Below are positions 45,155 through 54,214 of a stretch of DNA of 64,000 nt, one piece after another. The DNA lies in the NCBI GenBank assembly GCA_017304945.1, contig JAFKLG010000057.1, positions 124,001 through 188,000 on the forward strand. The letters are read 5' to 3'. Position 1 is the first letter of the stretch. Each line of letters begins with the position of its first letter. Both the position numbers and the translations under genes were made by a program. The DNA comes from Rhodospirillales bacterium. GTDB lineage: Bacteria > Pseudomonadota > Alphaproteobacteria > Acetobacterales > Acetobacteraceae. Below the pieces are notes generated by a model. That model was not told the DNA's origin, made no database searches, and saw nothing but the letters and a program-made list of their open reading frames with translations.

Positions 45155-46495
45155 TCACGCAGCCTTCACGCCTTCGATGAACGTGGACACGACCTGCGTG
45201 CCGCGTGCGATCTGTTCCGACACCTCGCCCGCCACGCGTTCCATTTCCGATGCCGCGTCGCCGGTCAGCGCCGCGGCGTCACGGACCCGCCCGATCGAGT
45301 CGCCGACCGTACGCATGCTCTCGAGCGCGCCTTCGATGCAGTTCGCGATTTCCTTCGCCGCGGCATTCTGCTCCTCGACCGCTGCCCCGACCACGCCGGT
45401 AACGGTGCTGACCTCGGCAATCGTCTCGGTGATCGCGGTGATCGCCGTGACGGCTTCCTGCGTGGTCGCCTGGATCTGCCCGATCTGCGAGGAGATTTCG
45501 CCGGTCGCCCGCGCGGTCTGGGTCGCGAGGCCCTTGACCTCCGAGGCGACGACGGCGAATCCCTTGCCGGCCTCCCCGGCGCGTGCCGCCTCGATCGTGG
45601 CATTCAGTGCCAGCAGGTTGGTCTGGCCGGCGATCTCGGCGATCAGGTTCACCACCTCCCCGATCTTCTGCGCGGCGCCTGCGAGGGCCTGCACGATCAC
45701 ATCCGTCCGGTTCGCCTGCGCCACCGCGCGCTGGGTGATCTCACCGGCGCGCTTGATCTGTTCGCCGATCGCCAAGGTTGAGGCGGTGAGTTCCTCGGTG
45801 GCACTCGCGACGATCTGGACGCTGCCGTTGGTGGATTGAGCCGCCACCGCCGCCGCGCTGCCGTCCCCCGCGGTGCCGGCCGCCTGCACCGCCATCGACG
45901 CCGCCGTCGCGTGCAGTTCGGTGGCCGCCGCGGCGATGACTTGCATCATCTCCCCGGCTTCGCTCGCGAACTGGGTCGTCAGGTTCGCGACACGCATCGA
46001 ACGGGCCTGCGCCGCTTCGGCCATGCTGCCGTCCATATAGACGGACAGCGCGACGTCCATGTCGAGGAACGCGGCCGCCATCACCGCGCTCTCCATCCGG
46101 CGCTGCGCCGCTGGGGAGAAGCGGTGCACGCGGCGGATGATGGCCGTGAACTGCGGCAGGACGAAGTTGTAGCCGCCAATGTACCAGCGCGGCTCGAGCC
46201 CGATGCGGACATGCGCGCGACCCACGCGCCGTACGCTCGCGAAGTAGTCGTCGTCGAAGCGGCCGGAGAACAGCCGCTCCCAATGCTGGCTCTGCGCCGG
46301 CTTGAGACGGGCTAGGTGCGGGCCGACGAGGGTTGCCAGGGCCGGCACGGACGAGACGTGCTGATAGAACGCGTCAAGAATACGTGGAAGTTGCGGGGCA
46401 GCGTGACGCCAGAACGCGGCCAGGCGCGGCCGCGCATCGTCGGTCAGGCCGAGAAACAACAATCTGCGATGATCGACGTCATCAATCGCCGACAT
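45155..46495 (-). CDS. globin-coupled methyl-accepting chemotaxis protein
   Basis: A 446-residue cytoplasmic chemoreceptor of the globin-coupled sensor (HemAT) type. Residues about 10-165 form a protoglobin domain with the proximal haem His at H95 ([18 protein letters not shown]). The C-terminal MCP signalling domain has the hairpin tip with [21 protein letters not shown] and [13 protein letters not shown]. There are no membrane helices. It should sense O2, NO or CO and signal to CheA; no other che genes lie in the window. The ATG at 46495 follows GAGG. Confidence 0.93.
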
Positions 46496-46590
46496 GGCAC
46501 GCCTCAGTGGTGAGGAGCGCAGCATGCGGCAACGTCGCTAACGAGCCGTAAACGCACGGACCGGCCCGTTCCGGCCTCCCGCGCGGCAGC

Positions 46591-47520
46591 CTACTGCGGC
46601 TGGCTCTTCTTGTGAGCGAGCAGCGCCATCAGCCGACGGTCCCTCCATTCCTGCCGGATGGCCTGCATGTTCGCCGGCAGCTCCGTCCGGCGGGCAGCGT
46701 GCAGCCGCTCGATCAGCGCGGCGTCCCAGTGCAGCGGCTGCATCTGCTCCTGCATCGTCTCGTAGAGCGGCCCGTACCGAGTGCAGTAGTCGGCGAGGCC
46801 GTTCGGGGCGTTCAGGTCGATCGTCTCGAGCGGGCCCATGAAGCTCCAGCGCAGGCCGAGCCCGTCCTTGACCAGCGCGTCGAGGTCGGCCGGGGAGATC
46901 ACATCGTCGGCGAGCAGGCGGAACGCCTCGGCCAGCAGGGCGCCTTGCAGCCGGTTCAGGGCGAAGCCGTCCAGTTCCTTCTTCACGGTCGCGGGGACCT
47001 GCCCGGCTCGGGTCATCAGTTCCCGCGTGCGGTCGACGGTGTCGGCAGTAGTCCAGGGGGCCGGACACAGTTCGACCAGCGGGATCAGGTAGGGCGGATT
47101 GACCGGATGGGCGACCAGGCACCGGCCGCGGCCACGTAGCGCCTCGGTGAAGGCGCTGGCCGGAATGCCGCTGGTGGAGCTGGCGAGCACCGCGTCGGGC
47201 CGCGCCACGCGATCGAGTTCGTCGAACAGGACCTGTTTGACGTCCACCTTCTCGGGGCCGTTCTCCTGCACGTGGTCGGCGGCGTGCACGGCGTCCCAGA
47301 GCGACTTGGCCGGGATGATCCGACGCTGCACGGCGGCGGGCTCGTCACCCAGGAGGCCGGCTGCGGCGAGTTCCGGCAGCCGGTCGGCGATGAAGTCGAT
47401 CGCGGCCTCGACCTGCAGGGGGAACTGGTCCCACAGCGCCACCTCGAATCCGGCGCGTGCGAACACGATGGCCCAGGCGCGGCCGATCAGGCCGGCGCCG
47501 ATGACGGCGACGTTGGTCAT
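46591..47520 (-). CDS. 3-hydroxyacyl-CoA dehydrogenase-type (L-gulonate/carnitine dehydrogenase-like) enzyme
   Basis: A 309-residue NAD-dependent dehydrogenase of the HCDH/lambda-crystallin family. GAGLIGRAWA is the NAD motif near the N-terminus; STSGIPASAF and AHPVNPPYLIPLVE contain the conserved catalytic His region; and the C-terminal HCDH domain includes F-x-x-N-R-L-Q. The closest functional comparisons are L-gulonate 3-dehydrogenase and carnitine 3-dehydrogenase. The substrate is not established. The ATG at 47520 follows GGAAGG. It is divergent from the large NRPS-like gene. Confidence 0.85.
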   Translation of the reverse strand: MTNVAVIGAGLIGRAWAIVFARAGFEVALWDQFPLQVEAAIDFIADRLPELAAAGLLGDEPAAVQRRIIPAKSLWDAVHAADHVQENGPEKVDVKQVLFDELDRVARPDAVLASSTSGIPASAFTEALRGRGRCLVAHPVNPPYLIPLVELCPAPWTTADTVDRTRELMTRAGQVPATVKKELDGFALNRLQGALLAEAFRLLADDVISPADLDALVKDGLGLRWSFMGPLETIDLNAPNGLADYCTRYGPLYETMQEQMQPLHWDAALIERLHAARRTELPANMQAIRQEWRDRRLMALLAHKKSQPQ

Positions 47521-47653
47521 GCGGCTTCCTTCCATGGCGGCCGCACATGACACCCGGAGCCGCCGTGCTGGCAACCGCTCACGTGGCGCCGAGCGCGGGC
47601 GGCCGCCGGGGACGCGAGCAAGCGGGAATAAATGCGGCGACCTATCATTCCGT

Positions 47654-47681
47654 TTGAAATGCGGTCTGGCGGGCTGGTAAT
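47654..47681 (+). promoter_or_regulatory. candidate promoter of the NRPS-like gene
   Basis: TTGAAA at 47654-47659 and GGTAAT at 47676-47681 are separated by 16 bp, a reasonable sigma-70 match in otherwise GC-rich DNA. They lie in the 185-bp divergent gap, 25 bp before the start codon. A ribosome site AAGTAGG sits a few bases before the ATG. Confidence 0.4.
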
Positions 47682-47705
47682 CAGCGCCGAGTCAAGTAGG
47701 TCAAT

Positions 47706-50700
47706 ATGAACGACGCATCACAAAGTGTCGCGCAGCCGACGCCATCGATTGCTGCGATTGGGACTTCGCTGCACTCATCGCTCGCAGCGGTCTTCACGAC
47801 AACCGCCGCGCGTGTTCCCGAGAAAACCGTATTCATCTTCCGCGGCGAACGTCTCAGCTACCGAGAGTTGGATCGCCGTACGGATCGATGGGCGGCGCTG
47901 CTGCGGGATCGTGGCGTCGGGCCCGGCCAGTTCGTCGGCGTCTGGATCGAGCGGTCGATGGAGCTGCATGCCGCGATCCTGGCCATCCTGAAGGTCGGCG
48001 CCGCCTACATCCCGTTCGACCCGGATGCGCCGCGCGACCGGGTCGAGACCAGCCTCGACGACTGCGCCGCCGTGGCGCTGCTGATCGATGCGGCGCATGC
48101 CGAACGGGCGGAGGGACTGGCCACGCCGCGGATCGACGTCGCGACCCTCGATGCGCATCACGGCGAGGGGTTCGTGCCCGTCACGCCGGCGCCGTCGGAT
48201 CCGGCCTATGCGATCTACACCTCGGGCTCGACCGGCAAGCCGAAGGGCATCGCCGTTAGCCACGCCAACATCTGCCACCTGCTCGCGTCCGAGAACAGCG
48301 TGCTGCAGGTGACCGAGGCCGACATCGTCTACCAGGGCTTCTCGCCCGCCTTCGACATGTCGCTCGAGGAGGTGTTCGTCTCCTACCTCGCCGGCGCCAC
48401 GCTGGTGATCGGCCCACCGGAGCTGGTGCGCGCGGCGGACGCGCTGCCTGCGTTCCTGCGGGACGCCGGGGTCACGGTGCTGCATTGCGTGCCGACGCTG
48501 CTCGCCATGCTGACCGAGGACGTGCCGGGGCTGCGGCTGATCAACATGGGCGGCGAGGCCTGTCCCGCGGCGCTGGTCGACCGCTGGTGGCGGCCGGGTC
48601 GCCTGCTGTTCAACACCTACGGTCCGACCGAGACCACCGTCACCGCGACCGGCGCGATCCTGGAGCCGGGCGATCCCATCACCATCGGCCACCCGCTGCC
48701 CGGCTACACCGCCTACATCCTGGACGAGACCACGCTCGCCCCGGTGCCGGACGGGGAGGCGGGCGAGCTGTTCATCGGCGGACCCGGCGTCGCCATCGGC
48801 TATATCGGCCGGCCGGAACTGACCGCCGAGAAGTTCATCGCCAACCCGGTGCCGGAGGCGGCCGCCGCCGACCCCCGCATCTACCGCACCGGCGACAAGG
48901 CGAGCTTCGACGCGCAGAAGCGGATCGTCTTCCACGGCCGGCTCGACGACCAGGTGAAGTTCCGCGGCTACCGGATCGAGACCGGGGAGATCGAGGCGGA
49001 ACTCGGCAAGCTCGACGCGGTGCGCGCCGCCGCCGTGGTGCTGCGGGACGATCCGCACGGCACGCAGCATCTGGTCGCCTTCGTGGTCGGCGCCGAGGAC
49101 CAGCCGGTCGACTCCGGCGCCATCCGGGAGGCGCTGCGTGCGCGGCTGCCGTCCTACATGATCCCGACACTGTTCCAGCCGATCGAAGTCGTCCCCCGCC
49201 TGCCCAGCGGCAAGATCAACCGCAAGGCGCTCCCCGACCTGACCGAGGTGATCGCGATCGACGACAGCCGCGCGGTGGAGCCGCCGGCGACCCCGCTGGA
49301 GGCGGCGCTGCTCGAGTCCTGGCAGGCGCAGGTCCCGCATGTCCGGGTGGGCGTGACCGACGATTTCTTCCTCGACCTCGGCGGTCACTCGCTGCTGGCG
49401 GCGGGGCTCGTCTCCCGCCTGCGTGCCGACCCGCGCTTCCGCCGCGTGTCGATCCAGGACCTCTACACGCATCGCACCATCCGCGCCCTCGCCGCGACGC
49501 TGGACCAGCCCGCTGAACAGGCGGTGCACAAGCCCGCATTCGCGCCGGTGCAGCCGCTGCGGCATGCGCTGTGCGGCATCGCGCAGGCGGTGCTGCTGAT
49601 CCCGATCTACGGGCTGGTGGCGCTGCTCTACATCGTGCCGTACCTGGTGTTCTCGGCGCTGATGGAGTTCGAGCACGGGTTGCCGCTGTCCTTGCTCGGC
49701 ACGCTGGTCGCCTTCGTCGCCACGCCGCCGCTGATCACCGGCATTGCCATCGCGCTGAAATGGCTGGTGATCGGCCGCTTCCGCGAGGGCTCCTACCCGC
49801 TCTGGGGCAGCTACTACCTGCGCTGGTGGTTCGTCACCCGCCTGCTCAACGTCGTCCCCGCCGGCTTCATGGCCGACACCCCCGCCCAGGCCGTCTACGC
49901 CCGCCTGCTGGGCGCACGGGTCGGCCGCGAGGCGCATCTCGGGTCCGTCACGATGGGTGCGCCGGACTTGGTCTCGATCGGCGCCGGCACCGCGATCGGC
50001 AACGAGGTCCGCCTCGCCAACGCCACCGTGGAAGGCGGCCGCCTGGTGATCGGCCGCATCACGATCGGCGCCGACGCCTATATCGGGTCCCGCTGCGTCG
50101 TCGAGGGCGGCACCGAGATCGGCGATCGCGGTGAGCTCGACAACCTTTCCGCGCTGACCCATGCGAGCCGCATCCCGGCCAACGAGATCTGGCGCGGCTC
50201 TCCCGCGTCGTTCCACGCCAAGGCGACGCCGCCGACGACGGCACCGGTTCCGGAACAGAGCGGCCGCCCCGGATTCGACGTGGCGTTGTGCCTGCTGATG
50301 CTGATCTTCCCGGTCGCCGCCTTCGCGCCGCTGATGCCCGGCATGGTCATCTTCGACCAGATCTATGACGAACGGTGGGACGTCGCGATCCCGCTGTTCG
50401 TGCTGATCCCGCTGATCGCGGTGCTCTACACCACCCTGATGCTGGGCGAGATCGTCGTCCTGCGCTGGGCCCTGATCGGCCGCGTGCAGCCGGGATCGCA
50501 TCCGGTCCGCTCCGGCTTCTTCCTGCGCAAATGGTTCGTCGATCACCTGATGGACCTGGCGCTGGCCGCGGTGCACCCGATCTACGCGACGCTCTACGTC
50601 GTCCCGTGGCTGCGTGCCCTCGGCATGCGCATCGGTCGGCGCGCCGAAGTGTCCACCGCGACCGCCATCACCCACGACCTGGTGGAGATCGGGGAGGAGG

Positions 50701-51659
50701 CGTTCATCGCCGATGGCGTGATGCTGGGCGACGCGGAGATCCGTCGCGGCGTGCTGACCCTGCGGCACACCGTGGTCGGGCGGCGCAGCTTCGTCGGCAA
50801 TTCCGGCTTCCTGCCGGACGGCAGCACGATCCCCGACGATTGCCTGGTGGGCTGCCTCTCGCTGCCGCCGGACGCACCACTCGCCCCCGGCCAGACCTGC
50901 CTCGGCACGCCGTCCTTCATCCTGCCGCGGCGGCAGAGCTTCCTCGACCACGACAACCGGCTGACCTTCCGGCCGGGGGTGGCACGCATCGTGGCCCGCC
51001 TCACCGTGGAGGGGCTGCGCATCCTGGCGCCCACCATCCTGTTCGTCACCTTCCTCGGCTACGCGATGGAGGCGTTCGACCAGGTCTACGACCACCACGG
51101 GTTGTTCGTCTCATACCTGGCGGTGCCGTTCATCTACGTGCTGATCGTCGGCCTGCCCTCGCTCCTGGTGGTCGCGGCGCTCAAATGGCTGCTGGTCGGG
51201 CGCTACAAGCCGGCCGAAGTGCCGATGTGGACGCCATTCGTCTGGCTCAGCGAGGCGGTGACCGCGGTCTACGAGGCGGTGACCGTGCCGATGCTGCTGG
51301 AGCCGCTGCGCGGCACGCCCTTCCTGCCCTGGGCCTGGCGCCTGTTCGGGGTTCAGGTCGGCCGACGCGTCTATGCCGATACGACCGACATCACCGAGTT
51401 CGACATGGTGCGGATCGACGACGACGCCGCGCTGGAGGAGGCGAGCGGCCCGCAGACCCATCTGTTCGAAGACCGGGTGATGAAGATCGGCCCCGTCCAT
51501 CTCGGCCCGCGCAGCACGATCGGGACAAACGCGATCGTCCTCTATGGCGCGACCATCGGGGCGGATGCGGCGATCGGCTCGCTGTCGCTGGTGATGAAGG
51601 GAGAGGCCATTCCGGAGGGCACGGTCTGGGCGGGTTCACCGGCGCGCGCACGTGGCTGA
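47706..51659 (+). CDS. single-module membrane NRPS-like synthetase (epsilon-poly-L-lysine synthetase/TIGR02353 type)
   Basis: A 1317-residue protein in one frame. An adenylation domain (about 25-520) has YTSGSTGKPKG at 171-181, NTYGPTE at 303, YRTGD at 393 and the active-site lysine K503. A carrier domain (about 540-610) has the phosphopantetheine Ser S562 in LGGHSLL. There is no condensation or thioesterase domain. The remaining ~700 residues alternate pairs of transmembrane helices with three left-handed beta-helix (hexapeptide) domains at about 740-835, 975-1055 and 1215-1310. This is the plan of Streptomyces Pls, which polymerises lysine through its three tandem domains, and of the family TIGR02353. 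By hand alignment to GrsA the specificity residues read D-M-E-H-I-M-T-V-T-K. The product is not known. A basic-amino-acid antiporter-type gene follows. Confidence 0.93.
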   Translation: MNDASQSVAQPTPSIAAIGTSLHSSLAAVFTTTAARVPEKTVFIFRGERLSYRELDRRTDRWAALLRDRGVGPGQFVGVWIERSMELHAAILAILKVGAAYIPFDPDAPRDRVETSLDDCAAVALLIDAAHAERAEGLATPRIDVATLDAHHGEGFVPVTPAPSDPAYAIYTSGSTGKPKGIAVSHANICHLLASENSVLQVTEADIVYQGFSPAFDMSLEEVFVSYLAGATLVIGPPELVRAADALPAFLRDAGVTVLHCVPTLLAMLTEDVPGLRLINMGGEACPAALVDRWWRPGRLLFNTYGPTETTVTATGAILEPGDPITIGHPLPGYTAYILDETTLAPVPDGEAGELFIGGPGVAIGYIGRPELTAEKFIANPVPEAAAADPRIYRTGDKASFDAQKRIVFHGRLDDQVKFRGYRIETGEIEAELGKLDAVRAAAVVLRDDPHGTQHLVAFVVGAEDQPVDSGAIREALRARLPSYMIPTLFQPIEVVPRLPSGKINRKALPDLTEVIAIDDSRAVEPPATPLEAALLESWQAQVPHVRVGVTDDFFLDLGGHSLLAAGLVSRLRADPRFRRVSIQDLYTHRTIRALAATLDQPAEQAVHKPAFAPVQPLRHALCGIAQAVLLIPIYGLVALLYIVPYLVFSALMEFEHGLPLSLLGTLVAFVATPPLITGIAIALKWLVIGRFREGSYPLWGSYYLRWWFVTRLLNVVPAGFMADTPAQAVYARLLGARVGREAHLGSVTMGAPDLVSIGAGTAIGNEVRLANATVEGGRLVIGRITIGADAYIGSRCVVEGGTEIGDRGELDNLSALTHASRIPANEIWRGSPASFHAKATPPTTAPVPEQSGRPGFDVALCLLMLIFPVAAFAPLMPGMVIFDQIYDERWDVAIPLFVLIPLIAVLYTTLMLGEIVVLRWALIGRVQPGSHPVRSGFFLRKWFVDHLMDLALAAVHPIYATLYVVPWLRALGMRIGRRAEVSTATAITHDLVEIGEEAFIADGVMLGDAEIRRGVLTLRHTVVGRRSFVGNSGFLPDGSTIPDDCLVGCLSLPPDAPLAPGQTCLGTPSFILPRRQSFLDHDNRLTFRPGVARIVARLTVEGLRILAPTILFVTFLGYAMEAFDQVYDHHGLFVSYLAVPFIYVLIVGLPSLLVVAALKWLLVGRYKPAEVPMWTPFVWLSEAVTAVYEAVTVPMLLEPLRGTPFLPWAWRLFGVQVGRRVYADTTDITEFDMVRIDDDAALEEASGPQTHLFEDRVMKIGPVHLGPRSTIGTNAIVLYGATIGADAAIGSLSLVMKGEAIPEGTVWAGSPARARG

Positions 51660-51747
51660 TCGCGCCGTCGCGGCGACGATCCCGCGTGCCGCCGCGGGTT
51701 CGGCCGGCGTCGGCGCATCCGGCGCCGGTGACACGCCGGGTGCCGCG

Positions 51748-53193
51748 ATGTCCGAGGTCGCCGCCGCGGCCGGGTCCGGCGGAACGCTCTCGCTGACGGC
51801 ACTCACCGCGCTGGTCGTGGGCTCGATGATCGGCGGCGGCATCTTCTCCCTGCCGCAGGCCTTCGCGCGCAGCAGTGGCGTGCTGGGGTCCGTGGTGGCC
51901 TGGGTGATCGCCGGCGCCGGGATGCTCACGCTCGCGCTGGTGTTCCAGACCCTGTCGCGCCGCCGCCCCGACCTGGACGCCGGCGTCTACGCCTATGCGG
52001 AGGCGGGATTCGGCCCCTATCCGGGCTTCCTCTCCGCCCTCGGCTACTGGGCGAGCGCCTGCCTCGGCAACGTCTCCTTCCTGCTGCTCGGGGTGTCCAC
52101 CCTGGGCGGGGTCGTCCCGGTCCTCGGCGAAGGGGACACGCCGGCCGCGGCCTTGCTCGCCTCCGCGATCCTGTGGGGCTTCCACTTCATGCTGCTGCGC
52201 GGGGTGAAGGAGGCGGCGGCCATCAACACCGTCGTCACCATCGCCAAGGTGGTGCCGATCCTGGTCTTCCTCGTGGTCGCCGGCGCCGCCCTGCGGGCCG
52301 ACCTGTTCACCGCCAATGTCTGGGGCGGCGTCATGCCCTCCTGGTCCGCCCTGGGCGAGCAGGTGCGCGGCACCTTGCTGATCACCGTGTTCGTGTTCAT
52401 CGGCATCGAGGGCGCCAGCGTCTACTCGCGCTACGCCCGCCGCCGCCGCGACGTGGGCGTCGCGACGGTGCTGGGCTTCGCGGGCGTGCTGGCGCTGCTC
52501 ACGCTGGTGACGTTGCTGCCCTTCGGCATCCTGTCGCGAGCGGAGATCGCCGGGCTGCACAACCCGTCCATGGCCGGCATCCTGGGTGCGATCCTCGGTC
52601 CTTGGGGCAGCGCCTTCGTCGGCCTCGGCGTGCTGGTCTCGGTGCTGGGCGCGTTCCTGTCCTGGTCGCTGCTGGCGGCCGAGGTGCTGTCCACCGCCGC
52701 ACGCCAGGGCACCATGCCCCGCTTCCTCGCGCGGGAGACCGCGAACGGCGCGCCGGCGGCCGCGCTCTGGCTCACCAACGGCGCGGTGCAGGTCTTCCTG
52801 CTGGTCACGCTGCTGGGCGAGTCCGCCCTGCGCCTCGCCATGGAGCTGACCAGCGGCATGAGCCTCGTGCCCTATCTGCTGGTCGCCGCCTTCGGCCTGC
52901 AGCTCGCCTGGCGCGGCGAGACCTACGCCACGGATCCGCGCGCGCGCCGGCTCGACTTCGCGCTGGCGGCCGTGGCAACGCTGTATGCCGGGTTCCTGAT
53001 CCTGTTCGGCGGCCCGAAATACGTGCTGCTCTCGGCAATCCTCTACGCCCCCGGCACGCTCCTGTTCCTGATGGCCCGCCGCGAGCGCAGCCTGCCGGCC
53101 TTCACCCGCATGGAACGCGGCCTCGCCGGGATCGTCTGCCTCGCGGCGATCGGTGCCGCCCTGGCCCTTGCGACCGGGGCGCTACCGCTGTAG
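51748..53193 (+). CDS. APC-family basic amino acid/polyamine antiporter
   Basis: An amino acid permease of about 481 residues (from 51748) with about 12 transmembrane helices. VVGSMIGGGIFSLPQAF is the APC helix-1 motif. FVFIGIEGASVYSRYARRRRDVGVAT is the conserved helix-6/loop seen in arginine/ornithine and lysine/cadaverine antiporters (APA group). The frame stays open to a GTG at 51652 that overlaps the NRPS-like stop codon; I choose ATG 51748 because the longer form adds a low-complexity Ala/Gly tail, but translational coupling through the GTG is possible. It likely moves a cationic amino acid, perhaps as substrate supply for, or exchange with, the upstream synthetase (inference). Confidence 0.88.
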   Translation: MSEVAAAAGSGGTLSLTALTALVVGSMIGGGIFSLPQAFARSSGVLGSVVAWVIAGAGMLTLALVFQTLSRRRPDLDAGVYAYAEAGFGPYPGFLSALGYWASACLGNVSFLLLGVSTLGGVVPVLGEGDTPAAALLASAILWGFHFMLLRGVKEAAAINTVVTIAKVVPILVFLVVAGAALRADLFTANVWGGVMPSWSALGEQVRGTLLITVFVFIGIEGASVYSRYARRRRDVGVATVLGFAGVLALLTLVTLLPFGILSRAEIAGLHNPSMAGILGAILGPWGSAFVGLGVLVSVLGAFLSWSLLAAEVLSTAARQGTMPRFLARETANGAPAAALWLTNGAVQVFLLVTLLGESALRLAMELTSGMSLVPYLLVAAFGLQLAWRGETYATDPRARRLDFALAAVATLYAGFLILFGGPKYVLLSAILYAPGTLLFLMARRERSLPAFTRMERGLAGIVCLAAIGAALALATGALPL

Positions 53194-53224
53194 CGCAGGA
53201 CGGAGCAGGAGCGGGGAGGGGACC

Positions 53225-54214
53225 ATGCCGAAAGTGGCCGTGCTGGACGACTGGCAGGACGTGGCGCGTTCCAGTGCCGACTGGGCGCCGCTCGAGGCGC
53301 GGGCGGAGGTCGTGTTCTTCCCCGATGCCTTCGCCAGCGAGGACGAGGCCGCGGCCAAGCTCGCGGACTTCGACATCGTGCTGTCGATGCGGGAGCGCAC
53401 GCCGCTGCCGGGCAGCCTGATCCGACGCCTGCCCAAGCTGCGCATGCTGGGCATGACCGGCGCCCGCAACCTCTCGCTCGACACCCCGGCCTGCACCGAA
53501 CGCGGCGTGGTGGTCTGCAGCACCCAGGGCGGCTCCTACACCGACTCAGCCACCGCCGAACTCGCGCTCGGCCTGCTGCTCGCCTCCGCGCGGGGCATCC
53601 CGGCCGCGGACGCCAGCATGCATTCGGGCGGCTTCCAGCGTGGCGTGCCGGTCGGTTTCGCGCTGGCCGGCAAGACCATGGGCGTGGTCGGGCTCGGCAA
53701 GCTGGGCGCCTACATGGCGAGCTACTGCCTGGCCCTGCGCATGGAGGTGCTGGCCTGGAGCCAGAACCTGACCGACGCGCGCGCCGCCGAGGTCGGGGTC
53801 ACCAAGGTCTCGAAGGAGGAGCTGTTCGAGCGCTCCGACGCGATCAGCATCCATCTCGTGCTGTCGGACCGGTCGCGCGGGCTGGTCGGCGCCGCCGACA
53901 TCGCGCGGATGAAGCGGGGGGCGGTCCTGATCAACACCTCCCGCGGACCGATCATCGACGAGGCGGCGATGGTCGCCGCGCTCCAGGACGGGCGGATCGC
54001 CGCGGCGCTCGACGTGTTCGACCGCGAGCCGCTGCCCGCCGACCACCCGCTGCGTCACACGCCGAACACCGTGCTGACCCCGCATCTGGGCTATGGCGTG
54101 CGGGAGACCTGGGCGACGTTCTACCCGCAGAGCGTCGAGAACGCGCTGGCGTTCCTGGACGGCAAGCCGGTGCGCGTCACCAACCCGGAGGCGCTTGGGA
54201 AGGCGGCGTCGTAG
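53225..54214 (+). CDS. D-2-hydroxyacid dehydrogenase family protein
   Basis: A 329-residue NAD-dependent dehydrogenase of the D-isomer-specific 2-hydroxyacid family. The cofactor motif is GLGKLGAYMA, the substrate Arg lies in NTSRGPIID, the catalytic Glu in FDREPLP and the catalytic His in TPHLGYG. It interconverts a D-2-hydroxy acid and a 2-oxo acid; the substrate is unknown. The start at 53225 follows GGAGGGG. The gap after the permease is only 31 bp, so it is probably the third gene of the same transcript. Confidence 0.9.
   Translation: MPKVAVLDDWQDVARSSADWAPLEARAEVVFFPDAFASEDEAAAKLADFDIVLSMRERTPLPGSLIRRLPKLRMLGMTGARNLSLDTPACTERGVVVCSTQGGSYTDSATAELALGLLLASARGIPAADASMHSGGFQRGVPVGFALAGKTMGVVGLGKLGAYMASYCLALRMEVLAWSQNLTDARAAEVGVTKVSKEELFERSDAISIHLVLSDRSRGLVGAADIARMKRGAVLINTSRGPIIDEAAMVAALQDGRIAAALDVFDREPLPADHPLRHTPNTVLTPHLGYGVRETWATFYPQSVENALAFLDGKPVRVTNPEALGKAAS

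Follow-up and report, generated by a model that had tools for sequence, protein, structure and literature searches.

A predicted delta-poly-L-ornithine synthetase whose gene is overlapped by that of an ArcD-type antiporter in a Rhodospirillales bacterium

Pls, the epsilon-poly-L-lysine synthetase of Streptomyces albulus (adenylation (A) domain, PDB 7WEW), consists of an A domain, a carrier domain and a membrane domain with three tandem domains. Its relative PosA of Acinetobacter baumannii (locus L119; PDB 8G95-8G98) is an ornithine enzyme whose specificity, contact residues and polymer are experimental, and whose gene has no obvious cotranscribed neighbour (PMC10522769). A different handling of ornithine is seen in the arginine deiminase pathway, where ArcD takes up arginine and excretes ornithine (PMC5300872). 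Here we describe a locus at which relatives of these systems meet. It lies in a 64,000-nucleotide stretch of a Rhodospirillales bacterium genome (assembly GCA_017304945.1, contig JAFKLG010000057.1, positions 124,001 to 188,000; hereafter the window), where the gene for a Pls/PosA-family synthetase resembling nonribosomal peptide synthetases (NRPS-like) is overlapped by one for an ArcD-type antiporter. The explanation that we consider probable overall is that the two genes form a unit making a cationic ornithine homopolymer.

Both open reading frames were found where an earlier reading of the letters alone (the sequence-only reading) had placed them, and they carry the following features:

47706..51659, plus strand: Pls/PosA-family NRPS-like synthetase, 1317 aa, ATG start (TIGR02353; A, carrier (T) and membrane domains)
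47793..49217, plus strand: adenylation domain, about residues 30-504 (Pfam; alignment to the PosA A domain, PDB 8G95)
49329..49502, plus strand: carrier (PP-binding) domain, residues 542-599, with the phosphopantetheine site Ser562 in LGGHSL (Pfam PP-binding)
49527..51656, plus strand: predicted C-terminal polymerization domain, residues 608-1317 (AlphaFold2; Foldseek matches to hexapeptide acetyltransferases)
51453..51476, plus strand: QTHLFEDR loop, residues 1250-1257, candidate catalytic loop (conservation in 71 homologues)
51652..53193, plus strand: ArcD-type arginine/ornithine antiporter, 513 aa, GTG start (TIGR00905, TIGR03810, phylogeny)

The synthetase extends a known family by one new member, and published work allows its product to be predicted. 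TIGR02353, the 'Pls/PosA family' in current NCBI naming, matches residues 626-1313 with 679.3 bits against a cut-off of 423.1 and over positions 2-695 of its 695, and a profile search of the 5.29-Mb assembly gave this protein as the sole one above cut-off. Pfam matches comprise AMP-binding (30-366, E 2e-82), AMP-binding_C (428-503), PP-binding (542-599) and Hexapep repeats, with neither a thioesterase nor a canonical condensation domain among them, so that the Pls plan without thioesterase proposed from the letters is borne out. Ser562 is near-invariant among 71 homologues, and two matches to PF01648 in the window genome suggest that a phosphopantetheinyl transferase for the synthetase is likely available. 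Identity to PosA, which belongs to another lineage, is 39.6% over 1306 aa and 47% in the A domain; domain order, C-terminal family and, with one substitution, the specificity code are shared. A synthetase with 92% identity is encoded by Rhodospirillales bacterium 69-11 (G019), a genome of the same genus.

The monomer was predicted from the adenylation pocket. The best solved single-A-domain relative is the PosA A domain (363 bits over 389 residues), available as PDB 8G95/8G96, both PosA entries according to the data section of PMC10522769. Reading the code through a closer homologue as a bridge, and then through a multiple alignment with the PosA A domain (8G95), gave D217 M218 E221 H260 N280 G282 T304 V312 T313 K503. 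The PosA code is D-M-E-H-N-G-T-V-S-K, with crystal contacts at Asp217, Met218, Glu221, Thr304 and Ser313 (PMC10522769). Residue numbers of the two proteins coincide, and the window enzyme has D217, M218, E221, T304 and T313, the sole change at these contacts being a conservative Ser to Thr that retains the hydroxyl. The position that sets side-chain length holds Met218 in ornithine enzymes, Ala in lysine enzymes, S. albulus Pls included, and Phe in enzymes for 2,3-diaminopropionate and 2,4-diaminobutyrate (PMC10522769); residue 218 of the window A domain is Met, neither Ala nor Phe. The code aligned by hand in the sequence-only reading, D-M-E-H-I-M-T-V-T-K, agrees with ours except at positions 5 and 6, where I and M were rejected as a misalignment of the N and G given by PosA. 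Codes beginning with D-M-E also occur in hydroxyornithine domains. Because the corrected code is essentially that of the characterized PosA, the product is less open than that reading had thought: its step from an acidic pocket to a cationic polymer is supported and narrows to ornithine. Judged from these residues, ornithine is likely the substrate of the A domain, and the predicted product is delta-poly-L-ornithine.

The same code recurs at other loci. Among 69 aligned rows, some of them near-duplicates, DMEHNGTVTK is the commonest exact code (32 rows) and includes Sphingomonas, Agrobacterium, Aureimonas, Oligoflexus and others; next come DAESIGTVIK, whose Ala is the residue tied to lysine (PMC10522769), and then DLED codes. 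Single loci depart from these patterns. One alphaproteobacterial enzyme (L115, 8542-12621, minus strand) has the rare code DSECYGGVTK, also present in a Bdellovibrionales enzyme with arginine activity (PMC10522769), while another (L082, 6970-11022, plus strand) has DVEANGTGSK, found nowhere else in the set. One genome of the window's family (G654) carries two Pls genes (L104, L105), with codes DMEHNGTVTK and DLEDIGSVVK.

A tree of 56 full-length synthetases was built in quick mode and has some long branches, and its deeper forks were not relied on. It places the window protein and its sister in a clade of five with three proteins (67% identity) from a different genus of the window's family, all five carrying D-M-E-H-N-G. 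This clade is sister to the PosA-like proteins plus a DLE-code clade (Shimodaira-Hasegawa-like approximate likelihood ratio support 98-100) and is not nested within the PosA clade. Since the D-M-E code is present on both sides of the 42-row group in the tree, it is probably ancestral there and was simply retained. Sphingomonas and Agrobacterium Pls loci (for example L118 and L035) have exactly the code of the window enzyme but a different operon partner: their Pls gene overlaps a phosphopantetheinyl-transferase-like gene (L118, 6069-11184; L035, 13825-14463; L020, L040 and others), followed in Sphingomonas by a GNAT acetyltransferase gene, not an antiporter gene. Both the Pls genes with a DLE code and those most closely related to the window enzyme (L085-L089, L108-L113, L101-L103) stand in a conserved neighbourhood of aroC, a short-chain dehydrogenase/reductase (SDR)/fabI-like gene and a phosphoglycerate-mutase-like gene; these were considered as substrate-supply genes and rejected, as they look like housekeeping rather than pathway genes. 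A Pls gene with a lysine-type code (L039), on a contig labelled as a Klebsiella pneumoniae metagenome-assembled genome (MAG), groups with a proteobacterial MAG, and the label is probably wrong.

Residues 608-1317 were modelled with AlphaFold2 (pLDDT, the predicted local distance difference test score, 88.3; pTM, the predicted template modelling score, 0.89). The model contains three copies of a unit in which two long helices and some short ones are followed by a beta-rich segment, in agreement with the published PosA model. The best solved structures in Foldseek, each matching part of the model, are left-handed beta-helix (hexapeptide) acetyltransferases (E 1.8e-4), and hence the alternation of membrane helices with three beta-helix domains proposed in the sequence-only reading holds. 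We therefore model the domain as six helices interleaved with three tandem beta-helix domains, the helices being placed in the membrane by analogy with the family. The only near-invariant His of the domain across the 71 homologues is H1252, in the QTHLFEDR loop of the third beta-helix, accompanied by near-invariant Q1250, E1255 and K1260; the loop with H1252 is invariant in two further alignments (A1, A2). In maltose and galactoside acetyltransferases the catalytic His is similarly placed, in a loop that precedes the last coils. H1252 is a candidate catalytic residue, and we put it no higher than that.

The neighbouring protein had been described from the letters as a cationic amino acid antiporter of the amino acid-polyamine-organocation (APA) type. 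TIGR00905 (basic amino acid/polyamine antiporter) confirms this with 483.6 bits, above its cut-off of 409.05, and phylogeny sharpens it to predicted arginine/ornithine exchange: in a tree of 24 homologues the two pls-linked antiporters pair inside a clade of nine (100/100), and the remaining seven members all lie within 1.9 kb of arcA, the arginine deiminase gene. Identity to the nearest of these ArcD-type proteins is about 55-60%. Residues aligned to the AdiC pocket, including the equivalents of N101, E208 and W293, fall within the range of the arcA-linked homologues. The score for TIGR03810 (arginine-ornithine antiporter), 532 bits, is below the cut-off of 591, so we call the protein ArcD-type by phylogeny and not a TIGR03810 equivalog. 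The arcA-linked relatives (S. meliloti pSymA, G531; three scored) also miss this cut-off and fall into the same band, with 542-560 bits against 532-540 for the pls-linked pair. Unlike ArcD, the window antiporter has a Pls/PosA synthetase as its partner: arcA was not found in the window genome (G000) by hidden Markov model (HMM) and protein searches, nor in G019 by protein search, and the same protein search was positive in the controls G015 and G531. Membership of an arcA-linked clade in a genome without a detected arcA suggests that the exchanger has left its usual pathway. Some arcA loci, on S. meliloti pSymA (L116, 5944-10484) and in two genomes from the same family as the window (L198, L199), have two genes for ArcD-type antiporters, on either side of arcA or ahead of it.

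The synthetase and antiporter genes overlap by 8 bp (GTGGCTGA), and the overlap is kept in G019. Between the two genomes the ratio of nonsynonymous to synonymous substitution rates (dN/dS) is 0.12 and 0.16 for the two genes, both of which are under purifying selection. When about 65 Pls loci were surveyed, each together with several kilobases on its sides, an antiporter homologue stood beside pls only in these two genomes. A family-wide link between permease and synthetase is therefore rejected, an outcome that the sequence-only reading had itself named as a refutation, the association being confined to two members of one lineage; what stands is a lineage-specific joint unit, indicated by empty sites in related genomes. 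The insertion site is defined by the following features:

46591..47574, minus strand: left boundary gene, 3-hydroxyacyl-CoA dehydrogenase, outside the unit (Pfam 3HCDH)
47533..47705, no strand: divergent intergenic region on the left side of pls, retaining a remnant (GGCAACCGCT) of the empty-site intergenic sequence (alignment, 23 empty sites)
53222..54214, plus strand: right boundary gene, D-2-hydroxyacid dehydrogenase, outside the unit (Pfam 2-Hacid_dh_C)

The left boundary gene was found in all 33 same-genus genomes and the right one in 31. In 24 of the 33 the two lie about 100-210 bp apart, an empty site (intergenic regions were compared for 23 of these), while in G000 and G019 only, the distance is 5.69 kb and the space holds pls and the antiporter gene; of the rest, five have the two flanking genes split between contigs, and in two a match to one of these genes is missing. 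The empty sites kept in 24 same-genus genomes are most simply explained by a joint arrival of the two genes. The Pls relatives nearest to the window enzyme (G512, G526, G527) occupy the unrelated aroC site without an antiporter, making the simplest reading a single gain of the two-gene unit in the ancestor of the two sister species; repeated loss in all other same-genus genomes is less likely. Overall GC content and that at third codon positions (GC3) match the flanks for both genes. Foreign base composition as a mark of recent transfer was thus rejected, and the gain was either not very recent or from a similar donor.

In the mechanism we propose, the cytosolic A domain would activate L-ornithine as the adenylate, and the phosphopantetheine arm at Ser562 would then take it up as a thioester. 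The membrane-anchored C-terminal domain, with its three beta-helices and six predicted helices, would join the carboxyl to the next delta-amine, repeatedly, and release short delta-poly-L-ornithine. The overlapping antiporter would swap ornithine and arginine at the inner membrane so that monomer is kept for the synthetase or returned to it, and would serve this enzyme instead of the arginine deiminase pathway, which was not detected in the window genome. We infer the substrate, product and linkage, the transport substrate and its direction, and the biological role; the enzyme steps would follow from PosA and Pls by homology, and the transporter step is the weak one. The polymer may act as an antimicrobial or surface-active agent, a role already suggested for that of PosA. 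For arginase as a source of ornithine, the genome gave sub-cut-off matches only, and none is claimed. More tentatively, and with rather less than even confidence, we suggest that an antiporter once of the deiminase pathway now serves a delta-poly-ornithine synthetase as its dedicated monomer gate; were that so, the pair might, just as tentatively, be a mobile two-gene module in which membrane exchange sets polymer rate or chain length.

Several observations weigh against this scheme, most of them at the transporter. The flanking sequence retrieved for the other Pls loci, PosA's included, contains no antiporter homologue, so the antiporter is not needed for polymer synthesis generally, and because the pair occurs only in two sister-species genomes the association amounts to one evolutionary event. 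An arginine/ornithine exchanger swaps cationic amino acids and therefore provides no net supply; a role in ornithine export or recycling is equally open, and the protein could import ornithine for arginine, retrieve it from hydrolysed polymer or vent it. On the enzyme side, codes are no proof of substrate, their degeneracy having been pointed out by Patel and Gulick. The absence of the antiporter from the other loci, the lack of obvious cotranscribed neighbours of posA (PMC10522769) and the single event behind the link all favour an explanation in which the synthetase makes poly-ornithine and the antiporter came along with pls by chance, a passenger that exchanges arginine and ornithine for unrelated ends. 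That explanation is unlikely, in our judgement, given the conserved overlap, the purifying selection on both genes, the joint insertion, and the retention of the antiporter beside an ornithine-coded enzyme after loss of the deiminase context.

The two remaining explanations concern the polymer itself. Another cationic monomer (lysine, 2,4-diaminobutyrate, arginine or N-hydroxyornithine) would give a different homopolymer, and PosA does weakly activate other diamino acids, its M218A mutant gaining lysine activity (PMC10522769); in the window enzyme, however, residue 218 is Met and every contact residue but the Ser-to-Thr exchange is as in PosA, and the relatives of the antiporter are arcA-linked arginine/ornithine exchangers, so that a monomer other than ornithine appears improbable. 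Alternatively, the beta-helix acyltransferase-like domain might make no free homopolymer and pass activated ornithine, in one or a few rounds, to an acceptor in the membrane or envelope. The likeness of a predicted membrane-embedded domain to hexapeptide acyltransferases would suit such a transfer, and polymerization by the window synthetase is itself read across from its relatives. Yet full-length PosA, built on the same plan, yields free 7-12-mers in vitro, and the products of Pls enzymes are 20-35-mers (PMC10522769), which leaves acceptor transfer very improbable.

With ornithine homopolymer synthesis as the favoured explanation, an open-ended family member gains a definite predicted product, delta-poly-L-ornithine, in an organism other than Acinetobacter, and the ornithine-type code with Thr313 proves the commonest among the sampled loci. 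The antiporter as an operon partner of a Pls/PosA synthetase is new in our locus sample and in the literature searched, which describes no Pls/PosA enzyme with a monomer transporter of its own; searches on ornithine polymers, on the transport of Pls monomers and on how the beta-helix domain works turned up no relevant paper other than PMC10522769. The pairing offers a genetic handle on the origin of the monomer and on a possible coupling of its supply to synthesis, and the empty-site comparison turns the two-gene unit into a natural gain experiment within one genus. A specialist may find this a useful, testable extension of the PosA story, and not a very surprising one; if the scheme is true, the locus encodes a polymer factory, perhaps with its own monomer gate in the form of an exchanger apparently recruited from another pathway. 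Near the synthetase, at 45155-46525 on the minus strand, lies a gene for a globin-coupled chemoreceptor with Protoglobin and methyl-accepting chemotaxis protein (MCP) signalling domains.

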